Shown one piece after another: positions 3,058-10,301 of a DNA stretch of 64,000 nt. A program made the position numbers and the translations under genes. The stretch comes from Bacteroidaceae bacterium (GTDB lineage Bacteria; Bacteroidota; Bacteroidia; Bacteroidales; Bacteroidaceae). The notes under the pieces were generated by a model. That model searched no databases. It was not told where the DNA came from and saw nothing but the letters and a program-made list of their open reading frames with translations. Position 1 is the stretch's first letter. Every line of letters begins with the position of its first letter. The DNA lies in the NCBI GenBank assembly GCA_016280445.1, contig JAEEGS010000048.1, positions 1 through 64,000 of the forward strand, in the 5' to 3' direction.

Positions 3058-3126
3058 AATTCCTTCTATGAATTGATCAATTCCTTCTACTTATTCATCA
3101 ATTCCTTCTACGAATTGATCAATTCC
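3058..3126. repeat. 21-nt tandem repeat x3 plus partial, containing the 14-bp palindrome GAATTGATCAATTC twice
   Basis: aattccttctatgaattgatc / aattccttctacttattcatc / aattccttctacgaattgatc / aattcc. Confidence 0.9.
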
Positions 3127-3317
3127 AACAAGGAATCGAGTTTATCACTTACACTACCTTGATGGAGACTCTTACACTGAGTCAGTGGAGGTTTCCCCAC
3201 TGCCTCCGTTGAACATATTCCAGTCATTCGGCAAAGCAACTTACACGCGCCCAACAACGCATATTACACCACCACAAAAGAGACTGTTCCAACAGTTCTT
3301 TCTAACACCATACAATC

Positions 3318-3347
3318 AAGGTGAGGAAAAAATCCTCACCTTTTTTT
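3318..3347 (+). terminator. Intrinsic terminator
   Basis: aaggtgaggaaaaaatcctcacctttttttg: 10-bp stem followed by a T-tract. Confidence 0.85.
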
Positions 3348-3368
3348 GTTGTGTAAAAAAGAATGTTG

Positions 3369-3377
3369 TACCTTTGC
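3369..3377 (+). promoter_or_regulatory. -7 promoter element TACCTTTGC upstream of the structured leader and hsdM
   Basis: TTTG at 3345-3348, 20-bp spacer, TACCTTTGC. Confidence 0.7.
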
Positions 3378-3383
3378 ACTCAA

Positions 3384-3650
3384 TCACCAGTACATAACTT
3401 CAGCGGAGGGCTGGTGTGACATATTGAAAAATAATAACACAGCATTAATGTTGTTGGTAATATCTGGGAACCTGACAAATTCATAGATATTTATATAACC
3501 AAAGACAAGATTGATGCCTATGCGATAGCGTAGGCACAACTTATCAGGTTATATAGGCTTTGTCAGGGCCTCCAGATATGGGTAAGTAGCGTGTTCTACG
3601 CTATTTCCATGTCTGGAGGTCTTGATGGCAAAAGCCTATATGCAATCCGA
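3384..3650 (+). ncRNA. Candidate structured ncRNA or 5' leader of hsdM with two mutually exclusive long folds
   Basis: Nested helices 3460-3467/3572-3579, 3471-3479/3559-3567, 3493-3500/3547-3554, 3515-3523/3528-3536; alternative helices 3569-3581/3607-3619 and 3551-3562/3628-3641 use the same 3' strands. Confidence 0.6.
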
Positions 3651-3677
3651 TAACGTTTGCTGCCTAAAACTACGTGT

Positions 3678-5126
3678 ATGCAATACGAACAGACCTTTAA
3701 TGCCATCGACAACATCTTGCGCAACGAGGCAGGATGCAGCACTGAATTGGATTATATCGAACAGACTTCTTGGCTGCTGTTTCTGAAGTATCTGAATGAT
3801 TTGGAGCAGGAACAGGAGATGAAGGCGATGCTCAGCGGCAAAGAGTACAAACCCATCATCACAGGTTATCTGCGATGGAGCCAGTGGGCTGCGCCTAAAA
3901 AGCAAGACGGCTCGCTCGACACGGTGAACGCGATGACGGGCCCCGACTTGACTCAGTTTGTCGATACGAAACTCTTCCCCACCTTGCGCGAGTTTCAGAA
4001 GACTGCCACGAGTGCCAAGACCTTGGAGTATAAGATTGGCGAGATATTTGCCGAACTGCGCAACAAAATCACCTCTGGCTACAACCTGCGCGAAGTCATC
4101 AACCTGATTGACCAGCTTCATTTCCAGACAGCCGAGGACAAGCACGAAATGACGGTGCTCTACGAATCGAAGATTGCCAAGATGGGCAATGCGGGCAGAA
4201 ATGGTGGCGAGTACTACACGCCCCGTCCGCTCATCCGCACCATCGTCAAGGTGGTTGACCCTCAGATTGGTGAGACGGTGTACGACCCTGCCTGCGGGTC
4301 GGCGGGCTTCCTTTGCGAGGCATTCGCCTACATGAACGAGAAGGTGAAGAGCACAGCCGACAACAAGACTTTGCAGGAAGATACTTTCTTCGGCAAGGAG
4401 AAGAAGCCCCTGCCTTACATCATCGCCACCATGAACATGATTTTCCACGGCGTGGCAGCACCCAACATCATCCGTGGCAATACGTTGGCAGAAAACCTCT
4501 CGCAGATTCAGGAGAAAGACCGCAAGAACGTGATTCTTGCCAACCCTCCCTTTGGTGGCAGCGAACGAGGCGAGGTGAAGCAGAACTTCGACATCAACAC
4601 CAGCGAAACGGCCTATATGTTCATGCAGCACTTCATCAAGATGCTGAAAGTGGGCGGTCGTGCTGGCATCGTCATCAAGAACACCTTCCTTTCGAATAGT
4701 GATGCTGCCCAGCTCCGCAAGGTGCTGACGGAACAATGCAACCTTCACACCATTCTCGACCTGCCAAGCGGTGTGTTCCAAGGGGCAGGCGTGAAGACCG
4801 TTGTGCTATTCTTCGACAAGGGCACTCCCACCAAGAAGATTTGGTACTACCAACTCAATCCAGGGCGCAACCTCGGCAAGACCAATGCCCTCAACGAAGA
4901 CGACTTGGCAGACTTCCTCGCTCTACAAAAGACCAAAGCCGACAGCGAAAATTCGTGGACACTTGACGTGAGCACCTTGGGCAGCGACTACGACCTGAGT
5001 GTGAAGAACCCCAACAAGGTGGAAGAGGTGGATGAACGCACATCTGCCGAGATTGTTGCGTCTCTGCTCAAACTACAAAGTGAATCGCAGTCTTTGTTGA
5101 ATGATATAAAGGAGATGGTAGGATGA
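3678..5126 (+). CDS. hsdM: Type I restriction-modification system methyltransferase subunit (HsdM)
   Basis: Motifs YYTPRPLIRTIVKVVDPQIGETVYDPACGSAGFL and NPPFGGSERGEV; start at MQYEQTFNAID. Confidence 0.95.
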   Translation: MQYEQTFNAIDNILRNEAGCSTELDYIEQTSWLLFLKYLNDLEQEQEMKAMLSGKEYKPIITGYLRWSQWAAPKKQDGSLDTVNAMTGPDLTQFVDTKLFPTLREFQKTATSAKTLEYKIGEIFAELRNKITSGYNLREVINLIDQLHFQTAEDKHEMTVLYESKIAKMGNAGRNGGEYYTPRPLIRTIVKVVDPQIGETVYDPACGSAGFLCEAFAYMNEKVKSTADNKTLQEDTFFGKEKKPLPYIIATMNMIFHGVAAPNIIRGNTLAENLSQIQEKDRKNVILANPPFGGSERGEVKQNFDINTSETAYMFMQHFIKMLKVGGRAGIVIKNTFLSNSDAAQLRKVLTEQCNLHTILDLPSGVFQGAGVKTVVLFFDKGTPTKKIWYYQLNPGRNLGKTNALNEDDLADFLALQKTKADSENSWTLDVSTLGSDYDLSVKNPNKVEEVDERTSAEIVASLLKLQSESQSLLNDIKEMVG

Positions 5127-6235
5127 AGGAGGGTTGGAGTTATAAGAAGTTGGGAGAGGTTGCAAGAGTCATTCATGGCAAAAACCAAAAAGAAGTTCTT
5201 TCTGAGAATGGGCAGTATCCTATTTATGGGAGTGGCGGAACTGTTATGGGTTATGCCAATGATTTCTTATGTGAAGCAAGAACAACGATTCTTGGTAGAA
5301 AGGGAAGCATAAATAATCCACAATTTATAGAAAAACGCTTTTGGAACGTGGATACAGCGTTTGGGATAACAGCTCTGCCTGGAAATGACAGCAAGTTCAT
5401 CTATTATTTTGTTAAAAGTATAGATTGGTCTAAAAAGAATACTGGTACAACTTTGCCAAGTTTGACACAGCAAGTGGTGACATCTGTGGAAATCCCTGTT
5501 CCCACTCTTCCCGAACAGCGTTCTATCGTTACCCGTTTAGATGCAGCCTTTTCCCATATCGATGCTCTAAAAGCCAATGCCGAAAAGCATGTCAACGAAG
5601 CCCGCAAACTCTTCCAAGCAGAACTTACGGAATGTATGAAACCCAAAGAGGGATGGGAAGAGAAAAAGTTGGGAGAGGTTGGAACATTCTCACGTGGAAT
5701 AAACTTTGCAAAGAATGATTTCGTGAAAGATGGATACCCCTGTATCCATTATGGGCAAATTCATACAACATTTGGTCCTGTGACATATGAACATTTAACC
5801 TCAATTCCTAATGGAATGGTAAGACATGACAAACTCGCTTCCAAAGGAAATCTCATCATAGCAATTACAAGTGAAGATGTTGCAGGTTCGTGTAAATGTA
5901 CAGCATGGATGGGTGATTATGATATCTCAGTAGGAGCTCATGCTGCAATATACAAGCATGAACTAAATCCAATTTTTATGTCATATTACTTTAAGTCTTC
6001 AATATTTCAACAAGAAAAAGAACCATATGTTCATGGATTTAAAGTGATGGAGATAAAGCCTTCAGATATTGCCAAGATACCGATAGTATTTCCCTCAAAG
6101 GAAGACCAACAAATCATCGTCTCCCATCTCGACTCCCTTTCCTCCAATATCCGTAAGTTAGAGGAGTTGCAGCAGAAGACCATCGCCGAGTGCGATGCCC
6201 TCAAACAAGCAATGTTAAGAGAAGTATTTGAATAA
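5123..6235 (+). CDS. hsdS: Type I restriction-modification specificity subunit (HsdS)
   Basis: Two target-recognition halves: MKEGWSYKKLGEVARVIHG... and EGWEEKKLGEVGTFSRG...; 4-nt overlap with hsdM. Confidence 0.93.
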   Translation: MKEGWSYKKLGEVARVIHGKNQKEVLSENGQYPIYGSGGTVMGYANDFLCEARTTILGRKGSINNPQFIEKRFWNVDTAFGITALPGNDSKFIYYFVKSIDWSKKNTGTTLPSLTQQVVTSVEIPVPTLPEQRSIVTRLDAAFSHIDALKANAEKHVNEARKLFQAELTECMKPKEGWEEKKLGEVGTFSRGINFAKNDFVKDGYPCIHYGQIHTTFGPVTYEHLTSIPNGMVRHDKLASKGNLIIAITSEDVAGSCKCTAWMGDYDISVGAHAAIYKHELNPIFMSYYFKSSIFQQEKEPYVHGFKVMEIKPSDIAKIPIVFPSKEDQQIIVSHLDSLSSNIRKLEELQQKTIAECDALKQAMLREVFE

Positions 6236-6342: not shown

Positions 6343-6588
6343 ATGAAAGAAAGCAAACCTTATCCACTGATAGAAGAAGACGGCAATAGCCAGATGGTGC
6401 AAGAACCTGCGATGGCTGCCTATGCTTACGAAAATGTGTGCATTCCCAACGATATGCCATTTGCCCATGTGGTGGAGGGCGTGTTGCAGGTCACTCCCGA
6501 CATAGAAGAGGAAATCGCAGAGGTGGAGCGCGGTGAGGTCGTTTCAATGGGTGAATTTAAAAGCTTGTTTTCGAGATGGCTCGATTGA
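6343..6588 (+). CDS. Putative antitoxin-like small protein
   Basis: 81 aa, acidic C-terminus, overlaps the downstream RelE/ParE-like ORF by 13 nt. Confidence 0.6.
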   Translation: MKESKPYPLIEEDGNSQMVQEPAMAAYAYENVCIPNDMPFAHVVEGVLQVTPDIEEEIAEVERGEVVSMGEFKSLFSRWLD

Positions 6589-6875
6589 TTGCATTCAGTC
6601 GCCGTTCCACTGTGCAGTTGCAGAAGATATTGACTTTCTACGACAAGCGCAACGGAACGGATGAATATAGCCGACGTTTGCTGAGTAATCTGATGGCAGA
6701 CCTTGAACAATTGGCACTAATGCCCACTGCTAGCAGCCCATCCACTCGTGCGGATGTGCGTTTCTTTTATCTAATGGGCTTCACCATTATTTTCCACTAT
6801 GACTCACGCAGTTTGACGGTGCTCAGCATCCGTTCCACTTTGCGCCAGCCATTGAAGATGTACCAGAAAAAGTAG
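6576..6875 (+). CDS. RelE/ParE-like type II toxin
   Basis: 99 aa; N-terminal helices (QKILTFYDKRNGTDEYSRRLLSNLMADLEQLALMP), C-terminal strands (DVRFFYLMGFTIIFHYDSRSLTVLSIRSTLRQP). Confidence 0.7.
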   Translation: MARLIAFSRRSTVQLQKILTFYDKRNGTDEYSRRLLSNLMADLEQLALMPTASSPSTRADVRFFYLMGFTIIFHYDSRSLTVLSIRSTLRQPLKMYQKK

Positions 6876-6932: not shown

Positions 6933-9452
6933 ATGGACGAAACAGCAACCAGACGAAAGAAGATTGACCCTGCCCTGTATGGTGTGGGTTGGGAGCAAGT
7001 GCCCGAAAGTGAGATACTGACTGAGCAGCGTGCCTATCAGATTGCCCCTGGTCAAGTGAGTGCTCTGCCTCAGAATCGTCACCCCAAGAAGGCTGACTAT
7101 ATCTTGGAGTACAAGAAAAAGAAGTTGGCGGTGATTGAAGCGAAGGCAGACACGTTGGATGTGAGCGTGGGCATCCCACAAGCCAAACGCTACGCAGAGT
7201 TGCTGCATATCCGTTTCGCCTATGCCACCAATGGCGATGAGATTTGGGGCATTGACATGGGCGTGAAAGACGAGGAAGGCAAATACATCATCCCCTCGAA
7301 GGAAGGGCCTGTGCAGAAGTTCCCAAGTCCGCAAGAACTATGGGCAATGACCTACACGGAGGTGAACCCACAACGTGACAGATTCAACCTGTGTCCTCTG
7401 AATCGAGGTGGCGGGCGTGAACCTCGCTACTATCAGGAAATCGCCATTGATGCTGTGCTGAGTGCTGTGGCCAAAGGGCAAAATCGCATCCTACTCACAA
7501 TGGCAACAGGTACAGGAAAGACCTACACGGCCTTCCAAATCTGTTGGAAACTCTACGAGACGAATTGGAACACAAGGGGAACAGACAAGAAGCCTCGCAT
7601 CCTCTTTATTTCGGACAGAAACATCTTGGCAAACCAAGCGAAGAACGACTTTGAGCAGTTCCCTGAGGATGCGATGGAGCGTGTGACACCCGAACTGATT
7701 CACGACAAAAAGCATAACAATCGCCTGCCTACTGCACGACACTTGTACTTCACTATCTTCCAAACAGTAATGGGAAGCCCTGAAGAGGGAGGCGCGCCCT
7801 ATTACCAGCAATGGCCAAGAGATTTCTTCGACTTCATCATCATCGACGAGTGCCATCGTGGTGGTGCAAATGATGAAAGTGAGTGGCGCGAACTGATGAA
7901 CTGGTTTGAGCCTGCCGTGCAGTTAGGTATGACTGCCACACCTCGACGAAAGGTGAATGCCAACACCTACGAATATTTTGGTGCCCCCGTCTATACCTAC
8001 TCGCTGAAACAAGGCATCGAGGACGGTTTCTTGACTCCCTTCCGTGTACAAGTGGCAACCAGCAATATTGACACTTATCAGTATAACCCCAACGATGATG
8101 TGGAAGGTGACATCGATAAGAAGAAGGTATATACGGAAAACGATTTCTATTCTGGCAACATCCAACTGAAGGAACGTGACGAGCATCGTGTGAGGGAACT
8201 GCTGGGCAAGATAGACCCCAATGAAAAGACATTGGTGTTCTGCGCCACCCAGTCGCATGCCTATCAGATTATGGCGATGATTAACAAGTGGAAGCGTGTG
8301 CCCGACTCGAACTATTGCGAACGAGTGACTGCCGATGATGGCGATAAGGGAGAAAAGCAACTGAAACTTTTCCAAAACAATGACTTGCTGCGACCCACCA
8401 TCCTGACCACCTCGCAAAAACTCTCAACAGGTGTGGATGCAAGAAACGTGAGAAACATCGTGTTGCTGAGACCTGTGAACAATATGGTGGAGTTCAAGCA
8501 GATTTTGGGTCGTGGAACCCGTTTGTTTGAAGGTAAGTATTTCTTTACACTCTATGATTTTGTGGGGGCATCGGCGAATTTCCAAGATCCAGAATGGGAT
8601 GGCGACCCATTCTGCCCGTTGTGTGGGAATTATCCTTGTACTTGTAACAAGAAACCGAAGGGAATCTGTCCTAAGTGTGGACAAGATCCATGTGTGTGTC
8701 CTCCCAATATTCCAGAACCTTGTCCTGTATGTGGACATTTGCCTTGTACTTGTAGTGGAGGAAGACCTAAGAAGCAAGTGGTGGTGAAACTATCAAAACT
8801 GCGCTCCCTCATGCTGCACACCGATTGGGAAGAACGCATTCAGTTTGGCGACGAATTGCTGACGCTGGATGAATATATCAAAAGGCTGTTTGGCGCGTTG
8901 CCTGAATTCCTGGATGGAGAGGAAGACTTGCGTGAAAAATGGAGTCAGCCAGACACCAGAGAACAGTTGTTGGATGTGCTGGAGCGTTCAGGCTTCCAAG
9001 AAGACAAACTGGAGGTGGTACGCAGATTGTTACAAATGGAGAAGTGCGACATGCTGGATGTGTTGGCATATCTTGCTTACAACACCACTCCGATGGAACG
9101 TGAAAAACGAGCAGAAATCTTGCGTGAGGACATGAAGAAGAAGGTGACGAAGCAACAGCAGGAGTTTGCCAACTTCATTCTCGACCTGTATGTGCGCAAT
9201 GGCTTCAAGGAGTTGGGTATGGACAAACTGCCTACACTCATCGACATGAAGTATCATTCCACAATGGACGCATTAGCGAAGTTACAGATGACTCCGTTAG
9301 GCTTGCGTGACTTCTACCTCACCATGCAGAAGGATTTGTACAATGGAAGAAGTGTGACGCATCAGAACAACCAGCACTTTTATCCAATTTTCACTGAAGA
9401 CCTTTATTCCAGCAAGGCAGCAGAAGAAGGTGAAAATAGGAAAATTCGCTAA
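6933..9452 (+). CDS. hsdR: Type I restriction endonuclease R subunit / DEAD-DEAH helicase (HsdR), with three internal CPxCGxxPCxC motifs
   Basis: IEAKA nuclease motif; Walker A MATGTGKTYTAF; DECH box (IIIDECHRGG); QILGRGTRLFEGK helicase motif VI. Confidence 0.95.
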   Translation: MDETATRRKKIDPALYGVGWEQVPESEILTEQRAYQIAPGQVSALPQNRHPKKADYILEYKKKKLAVIEAKADTLDVSVGIPQAKRYAELLHIRFAYATNGDEIWGIDMGVKDEEGKYIIPSKEGPVQKFPSPQELWAMTYTEVNPQRDRFNLCPLNRGGGREPRYYQEIAIDAVLSAVAKGQNRILLTMATGTGKTYTAFQICWKLYETNWNTRGTDKKPRILFISDRNILANQAKNDFEQFPEDAMERVTPELIHDKKHNNRLPTARHLYFTIFQTVMGSPEEGGAPYYQQWPRDFFDFIIIDECHRGGANDESEWRELMNWFEPAVQLGMTATPRRKVNANTYEYFGAPVYTYSLKQGIEDGFLTPFRVQVATSNIDTYQYNPNDDVEGDIDKKKVYTENDFYSGNIQLKERDEHRVRELLGKIDPNEKTLVFCATQSHAYQIMAMINKWKRVPDSNYCERVTADDGDKGEKQLKLFQNNDLLRPTILTTSQKLSTGVDARNVRNIVLLRPVNNMVEFKQILGRGTRLFEGKYFFTLYDFVGASANFQDPEWDGDPFCPLCGNYPCTCNKKPKGICPKCGQDPCVCPPNIPEPCPVCGHLPCTCSGGRPKKQVVVKLSKLRSLMLHTDWEERIQFGDELLTLDEYIKRLFGALPEFLDGEEDLREKWSQPDTREQLLDVLERSGFQEDKLEVVRRLLQMEKCDMLDVLAYLAYNTTPMEREKRAEILREDMKKKVTKQQQEFANFILDLYVRNGFKELGMDKLPTLIDMKYHSTMDALAKLQMTPLGLRDFYLTMQKDLYNGRSVTHQNNQHFYPIFTEDLYSSKAAEEGENRKIR

Positions 9453-9518: not shown

Positions 9519-10301
9519 TTGATGATGAGATTAGAACATATATTTGGAATTATAGCCAACGAAGGCTTTACCGATATAACGTTACAAGAAATAGATAATT
9601 ACATAAACGATATACAAAATGGGACAGAAGATTTTCCTAGATTCAATTTATCAGAGCATGCAGGACTCTGCACGGCAGGTGCGCCTCTCATTGGGGCGTC
9701 CGTCATCGCATGCTACGCGACAGCAAGCCTTACAGCAGGTGGCAATGCTGAAGGCGGCGAAGGAAGCCTCGCAAACTGGCAAATAGACGAATGTCAGGAG
9801 AAACTAATAGAGCAATGGGCCAAGGCTGCCAATCTGTGGGAAGACGACTCAGAACAGATTCTGACACAGGAATTTGGCTCAAAGATTGCACAAGGTGCCG
9901 AGGCTAAGGTTTACTATAAAGAAGGAAACACGTCGGTAGTTAAAGAAAGAACTTCCATCTATTCCACTTGGCAAAAGGCTCTTGATGCCATTGTGCTACA
10001 CAACGTCCTGTTTCCTGAAACAGCGATGAAGGTAATTGGATTCACCCGCGATAGCGACAACCTGATGCGCATTGTATTGACTCAGCCATACGTAAACTGC
10101 CTACGATTAGCGACGAAAGGTGAAATTGACAATATGGTTGCCACAAAGGGCTTTCGTGACAATTGGAACGGACAGGGTGTAAACTATATTTCTGAACGCT
10201 TGGCTCTTGAAGACATGCATCCAGCTAATGTCTTTGTTGATACGATTACTGAGAAACCGATATGTATTGACTGCATTGTGAAATTTTTGCCTAAGAAATA
10301 G
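9519..10301 (+). CDS. Protein-kinase-fold protein resembling polyvalent-protein kinase domains
   Basis: GSKIAQGAEAKVYYKEGNTSVVKER (G-loop plus Lys), LALEDMHPANVFVD (HPxN catalytic-loop-like), KPICIDCIV (DFG-like Asp). Confidence 0.65.
   Translation: MMMRLEHIFGIIANEGFTDITLQEIDNYINDIQNGTEDFPRFNLSEHAGLCTAGAPLIGASVIACYATASLTAGGNAEGGEGSLANWQIDECQEKLIEQWAKAANLWEDDSEQILTQEFGSKIAQGAEAKVYYKEGNTSVVKERTSIYSTWQKALDAIVLHNVLFPETAMKVIGFTRDSDNLMRIVLTQPYVNCLRLATKGEIDNMVATKGFRDNWNGQGVNYISERLALEDMHPANVFVDTITEKPICIDCIVKFLPKK

Follow-up and report, generated by a model that had tools for sequence, protein, structure and literature searches.

A probable family of bistable leader RNAs in front of restriction-modification genes of Bacteroidales

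Transcriptional riboswitches that exchange a strand between their P1 helix and their expression platform include the purine riboswitch yxjA (PMC9756952) and the ZTP riboswitch pfl (PMC10085676). Among the regulators of restriction-modification (R-M) systems, RptR is a DNA-binding protein that acts on R-M and defence islands (PMC12255303), and the same article cites the C proteins of type II R-M systems and BrxR/CapW as DNA-binding regulators. A computational search for candidate structured RNAs in human microbiomes (PMC8040213) could in principle contain the leaders described here; its main text names no association with R-M systems or methyltransferases.

We analyzed a window of 64,000 nucleotides, the whole stretch from position 1 to 64,000 of contig JAEEGS010000048.1 (assembly GCA_016280445.1, Bacteroidaceae bacterium). 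Positions 3384-3677 of the forward strand probably constitute the 5' untranslated leader of an hsdM-hsdS-hsdR operon and belong to an undescribed family of cis-acting bistable Bacteroidota RNAs with programmed refolding. The leader resembles the yxjA and pfl riboswitches in its 5' UTR position, in an early domain whose closing helix loses a strand to a later hairpin, and in a predicted order of folding that is timed by transcription. Unlike them, it comes without a known ligand, a clear terminator (in the window) or an Rfam match, it would undergo several exchanges instead of one, and the genes behind it do not form one metabolic pathway. Like RptR, it would represent one type of regulator serving R-M systems in different bacteria; in contrast to RptR, the C proteins and BrxR/CapW, it would be a cis-acting RNA and it precedes many R-M types.

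The putative leader measures about 290 bases, and we infer its start from a promoter, which the sequence-only reading of this DNA had also named. The promoter is situated behind a terminator (table 1), and in it TACCTTTG (3369-3376) follows TTTG (3345-3348) after 20 nt. We take this TTTG-20 nt-TACCTTTG arrangement to be of the Bacteroidota type, and TAnnTTTGC precedes nearly all homologous leaders. The terminator isolates the leader from upstream transcription. Further upstream, tandem imperfect repeats of AATTGATCAATTCCTTCTA occupy positions 3064-3131, with weak, sub-threshold Rfam matches only. At the other end, the proposed hsdM start (ATG, 3678) agrees with the relatives, in which the protein read from that ATG is conserved.

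Table 1. Features of the leader region and of the operon behind it (positions in the window).
Feature	Position	Strand	Evidence or remark
Intrinsic terminator, strong	3318..3346 (3318-3342)	+	10-bp stem and T run
Promoter: TTTG 3345-3348, 20 nt, TACCTTTGC 3369-3377	3345..3377	+	Sequence
Putative bistable leader RNA	3384..3677	+	Fold z -9.4, homologues, covariation
H1, 5' hairpin CACCAG...CTGGTG	3385..3416	+	MFE fold; visible in homologues; covariation not counted
H2, hairpin CAGCAT-TA-ATGTTG	3440..3453	+	Conserved in aligned leaders; 3' half also pairs with the tail (P8)
P1 5' strand, early; partner 3572-3579, 8 bp	3460..3467	+	Covariation, z 35
P2 5' loop, early; partner 3559-3567, 9 bp	3471..3479	+	Covariation; helix in covariance model
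P3 5' strand, early; partner 3547-3555	3492..3500	+	z 25 own versus cross, 89/89 members
P4 hairpin; 3' strand doubles as P7 5' strand	3515..3536	+	98.5% of cells paired
P7 5' strand, alternative in the late state; pairs with 3595-3603 in the tip, ahead of a T run	3526..3534	+	96.9% paired, z 10
P6 5' strand, late; 3' strand 3631..3641	3551..3561	+	z 13 own versus cross
Hairpin AGGC...GCCT presenting the P2 3' loop	3555..3571	+	94.8% paired
P5 hairpin, late; arms 3571-3581/3607-3617	3571..3617	+	Covariation; excludes P1; in covariance model
P8 3' strand, partner 3447-3457	3647..3657	+	z 11.9, 75/89 members above shuffled tails; ends about 20 nt before the hsdM start
hsdM, type I methyltransferase	3678..5126	+	N6_Mtase 6.6e-61, HsdM_N 1.4e-8
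hsdS	5123..6235	+	Methylase_S 1.1e-30
hsdR	6933..9452	+	ResIII 1.2e-39, EcoEI_R_C 5.1e-18, HSDR_N 2.6e-6

The leader has a minimum free energy of -115.8 kcal/mol, far below that of 200 dinucleotide shuffles (-71.3 ± 4.7 kcal/mol; z = -9.4), none of which is as stable (0/200). The sequence-only reading had suggested that this region can adopt two mutually exclusive folds, and every helix it named is present where it was placed. Its third helix is 9 bp long (3492-3500/3547-3555), one more than the 8 bp first given; the 9-bp helix 3515-3523/3528-3536 includes one G-U, and both alternative pairings are found, namely 3569-3581 with 3607-3619 (13 bp, with TAGCGT/ACGCTA inside) and 3551-3561 with 3631-3641. 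The predicted pairing scheme is richer than first described, with a kissing contact for P2 and with P7 and P8 as additional alternatives. We distinguish an early set (H2, P1, P2, P3 and P4) from a late set (P5, P6, P8 and possibly P7). Almost all early helices compete with a late one; P1 and P5, in particular, both need the strand 3572-3579 and thus cannot coexist in one molecule.

To compare leaders we used a covariance model, R1, built from P2, P4 and P5 only, and two alignments: A3, of 17 leaders, and A4, of 86 members from fetched loci aligned by R1. P1, P3, P6, P7 and P8 lie outside the model and thus did not shape the alignment. In A3, 96.1% of the cells of P1, P2 and P4 are paired and 18 of 24 pairs change on both sides (shuffled mean, 8.9); sliding the pairs by 1-3 columns lowers the paired fraction to 25-52%. 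For P5 the figures are 88.5% of cells and 9/11 pairs. In A4, P5 is paired in 84% of cells and all 11 of its pairs change on both sides. The same holds for 8/8 pairs of P1 (82 sequences), even though P1 is absent from the aligning model. The 8-bp core of P7 is paired in 96.9% of cells and shows compensatory changes (e.g., G-C to A-U in 11 sequences). P4 reaches 98.5% and P2 100%; the seven pairs of P2 all change on both sides, and all of its 574 cells are Watson-Crick, without any G-U. The 3' side of P2 lies in the loop of the AGGC...GCCT hairpin (94.8% paired; C-G to U-A in 30 of 82 sequences) and its 5' side in the loop of a GAAA...TTTC hairpin, making P2 an apparent loop-loop kissing contact between two hairpins. 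The lack of G-U in P2, when the other helices have many, fits such a contact, and its strictness goes beyond that.

We also used an alignment-free test, in which the pairing of each strand to its own partner was set against its pairing to those of other members (89 non-redundant members). Own-versus-cross z was 35 for P1, 28 for P2, 25 for P3, 11 for P4, 17 for P5, 13 for P6 and 10 for P7, and ranged from -2.7 to 2.7 (|z| < 3) for six control segment pairs; relatedness inflates these values and is shared by the control pairs. P8, in which the 3' half of H2 pairs with the tail just before the start codon, gave 11.9. By these comparisons both folds covary, the early one through P1-P4 and the late one through P5-P8. 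Over P1, P2, P4, P5 and P7, G-U is found in 466 cells and A-C in 49; such an excess of G-U indicates that the folding strand is the gene-sense RNA, as expected of an mRNA leader. Homologues keep the paired segments, and the comparative evidence supports the claim of a bistable structured leader of an R-M operon.

Folding the window leader at rising length suggests when the folds would alternate. P1 and P2 have a probability of about 1 from 3578 to 3614; P5 takes over from P1 at 3620, and at 3638 P6 appears and P2 is lost. Just before the P5 3' strand, P1 exceeds 0.5 in 124 of 128 members, and in 94 of those it falls below 0.2 in the full leader. It still exceeds 0.5 in the full leader of 27 of the 128 members, showing that the equilibrium differs between members. 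The switch from P1 to P5 occurs at the same anatomical point across members in these growing-transcript calculations, which are equilibrium predictions that leave out pseudoknots, ligands and kinetics. On this prediction, the order in the cell would run from early to late.

Leader copies share architecture and not sequence, and most stand directly before a start codon. A blastn search over 101 related genomes returned close copies and many weak ones. R1, whose E-values are rough because of a short calibration, identified five strong copies in the source genome, one of them on the source contig. Within the genus it matched 38 of 45 genomes, and at family level (E < 1e-4) 159 of 349 genomes from 21 of 30 genera; an order sample gave matches in 54 of 207 genera and a phylum sample in 8 of 172 genera (E < 1e-5). 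Scanning one 19-base motif over named genomes yielded seven contigs, all seven confirmed by R1, from Prevotella, Alloprevotella, Paludibacteraceae and other Bacteroidales, mostly of ruminant origin. The family is spread in gut and rumen Bacteroidales. Rfam 15, which includes T-box, EAR and known riboswitches, gave no relevant match at permissive thresholds for the window leader, in line with the earlier remark that it was not recognised as a named RNA class, nor for 14 other members and 15 distant loci. Neither scanning viral contigs for exact motifs nor searching phage and plasmid records with blastn gave a match, and we found no description of the leader family in the open literature (supplementary tables and subscription journals lay outside its reach). 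Within the limits of these searches, the family, its many strand exchanges in their number and its association with R-M genes are new; mutually exclusive leader folds are already known as a kind.

Several individual copies have unusual layouts. One leader (L017, G006:C66, ~1139-1600) is truncated after the P1 5' strand, and another (L021, G035:C6, ~1460-1921) abruptly loses homology after P4, both with promoter, H1 and H2 intact; the points of loss may be recombination break points within the leader. Two leader copies stand in direct tandem before one gene at L198 (271-649) and at L200 (2984-3358), loci of two distant Bacteroidales genomes. Many of the order-level matches in G443, G537, G076 and G434 are at most a few hundred bases away from a contig end, a pattern that looks like assemblies broken by closely repeated leaders, and the copies of G443 have common upstream DNA and different genes. 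The locus of one distant member (L209) also contains an Acido-Lenti-1 RNA at 3187-3232, which passes the gathering threshold with 46.6 bits, and a second, weak match in inverted orientation at 3332-3377.

The window leader ends at a complete type I operon, hsdM-hsdS-hsdR. Two small overlapping ORFs of 81 and 99 aa, in a toxin-antitoxin-like arrangement and with no Pfam match, lie between hsdS and hsdR (6343-6875), and a Kinase-PolyVal domain protein (1.3e-33) is encoded directly 3' of hsdR (9519-10301). For 86 leaders, nearly all from the genus, we classed the first long downstream ORF by BLAST cluster and by Pfam/PADLOC of representatives. R-M or PLD/SNF2 helicase genes (types I, II, IIG and III) follow 69 of these 86 leaders, a share that is partly ascertainment, since R1 was trained mostly on R-M leaders, and that describes a subfamily and not the whole superfamily. 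They comprise MmeI-type IIG and type II methyltransferases (30), HsdM (14), PLD/SNF2 helicases (11), EcoRI-type methyltransferases (8), D12 (2), N6_N4 type II/III (2), C5 (1) and a ResIII helicase (1). One group of small methyltransferases (L070 type) is weakly recognised: its Pfam score of 25.4 bits falls short of the cut-off of 27, and PADLOC type II gives 3e-10. The exceptions outside R-M include acyltransferases (L085, L111, L121, L124), an MBOAT protein (L091), a DprA-like protein (L082), a BspA repeat protein (L142) and further proteins without assignment. The leaders of the seven loci found by the motif scan stand before three EcoRI-type methyltransferases, one Eco57I-type methyltransferase, one GIY-YIG protein, one PEGA protein and one unassigned fragment. 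Leaders in other families of the order also precede methyltransferase, type IIG, type III and helicase genes, and the most distant members (50-65 bits) precede secreted and lipoprotein-like genes. The median distance from the end of P5 to the ORF start is 47 nt.

The comparison of leaders with their genes indicates that the two are exchanged independently. Loci L010-L012 encode hsdM with 90-97% protein identity to that of the window and carry similar leaders; at L086 and L110, hsdM is 93-94% identical and the leaders lack detectable nucleotide similarity (R1, 115 and 89 bits). Two further loci, L028 (hsdM 95%) and L023 (94% over a truncated 103-aa frame), have no similar sequence at that place and no R1 match among the matches listed. 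Conversely, the leaders of L013, L014 and L015 are 82-85% identical to the window leader and have unrelated genes behind them, two of these leaders being located behind rplT. The leader may control the R-M operon that it precedes, but regulation specific to hsdM was rejected: many unrelated genes carry the leader, and some near-identical hsdM genes are without it. In the genus, a leader was detected for 8-9 of about 27 EcoRI-type genes and for 6 of 16 MmeI-type genes. With only about one-third of these genes carrying a detected leader, an obligate R-M element was also rejected; the remaining two-thirds imply that the leader is not required for R-M expression. Two other candidates were discarded. 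The element only appeared inverted in L010-L012, whose loci are stored on the other strand, and a possible leader peptide, opened in the window by an SD-like GGAGG and ATG 3625 as a short frame, is not kept in homologues.

The leader presumably regulates expression, and several mechanisms may be considered. In a strict riboswitch, the early domain would be a small-molecule aptamer and P1/P5 its expression platform. The covarying domain contains conserved unpaired nucleotides, its 5' UTR position follows from the promoter and its placement, and P1 and P5 share a strand while each covaries, so that the pair has the mutually exclusive elements typical of a riboswitch platform. However, the downstream genes, which include R-M genes, acyltransferases, a DprA-like gene and secreted proteins, have no common metabolic pathway and share no single ligand's metabolism or transport, and we consider this mechanism possible but rather unlikely. 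A transcription attenuator, in which P7 before a conserved T run would stop transcription and the early fold would let the polymerase through, is suggested by the pairing and compensatory changes of P7 directly before T runs (at least four T in 75 of 128 members). Yet no terminator-like site was called at the tip or elsewhere in the window leader, 60 nt separate the two arms of P7, many members have only short T runs, and the P5 3' strand still covaries after the T run. We consider attenuation unlikely. A put- or EAR-like RNA, which by processive antitermination would carry RNA polymerase across long operons gained by horizontal transfer, would also be structured, pseudoknotted and directly downstream of the promoters of acquired operons; it would leave the mutually exclusive folds unexplained and finds no Rfam match to EAR or others, and appears very unlikely.

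The leader is compact, highly structured and has its own promoter, as would a small RNA, stand-alone or processed, that acts in trans and lies before its downstream gene only incidentally. Such a role is nevertheless most improbable given the short conserved distance to the start codon, the reach of P8 close to it, and the different genes that all follow in the same orientation. The independent exchange of leaders and genes, with similar leaders before unrelated genes at one site, could also point to a recombination site acting as DNA through single-stranded hairpins and exchanging defence genes behind a common leader. Integron attC sites are long imperfect hairpins by exchangeable genes; they are located 3' of each gene, form arrays with an integrase and are recombined as single-stranded DNA. 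The leader shares with them the long imperfect hairpins that adjoin exchangeable genes, but it lies 5' of the genes, behind a promoter, in the same orientation and as a single copy per locus, without arrays and with one copy on the source contig. Moreover, G-U far exceeds A-C on the gene-sense strand, the helices and their alternatives exceed the needs of a recombination site, and homologous recombination suffices for the exchange; a DNA-level site is therefore extremely unlikely. Finally, the RNA could require both folds to reach a stable tertiary structure or to be processed, and not to switch.

We favour a cis-acting leader that refolds during transcription. The comparison shows the existence of the family, both folds, their mutual exclusivity, the position before genes and the exchangeability between genes. 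According to the proposed mechanism, the 5' part of the nascent leader would fold compactly, with P1 closing, P2 kissing and P3 and P4 forming. The emerging 3' strands, which mimic early 5' strands, would then displace these one after another: P5 would displace P1, P7 could displace P4, P6 would displace P3 and the P2 hairpin, and P8 would displace H2, so that refolding would reach to within about 20 nt of the start codon. The formation of the late fold, and with it the level of gene expression, would depend on what stabilises the early domain (a ligand, a protein, or the timing of transcription or ribosomes). Because P6 and P8 pair the sequence that extends to about 20 nt from the start codon, our guess is that the late fold corresponds to low expression and the early fold to open or raised expression. 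The presence of distant members before unrelated genes suggests that the signal is probably not restriction-specific; a general signal, such as a metabolite, the growth or translation state or a common protein, has a higher probability than one tied to R-M.

Tentatively, and with less assurance than for the leader itself, we suggest that one RNA switch family may serve as an interchangeable control module for many R-M types across Bacteroidales, such that several defence systems of a genome would answer one cellular or infection signal. What is known of R-M control concerns mainly DNA-binding proteins such as the C proteins and RptR, and a common leader would add control of defence at the RNA level. 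With unusually many strand exchanges, all supported by comparison, these leaders would also be a good natural model of programmed RNA refolding, and with a covariance model built from the members, hundreds of leaders could be annotated at once in gut and rumen Bacteroidales.
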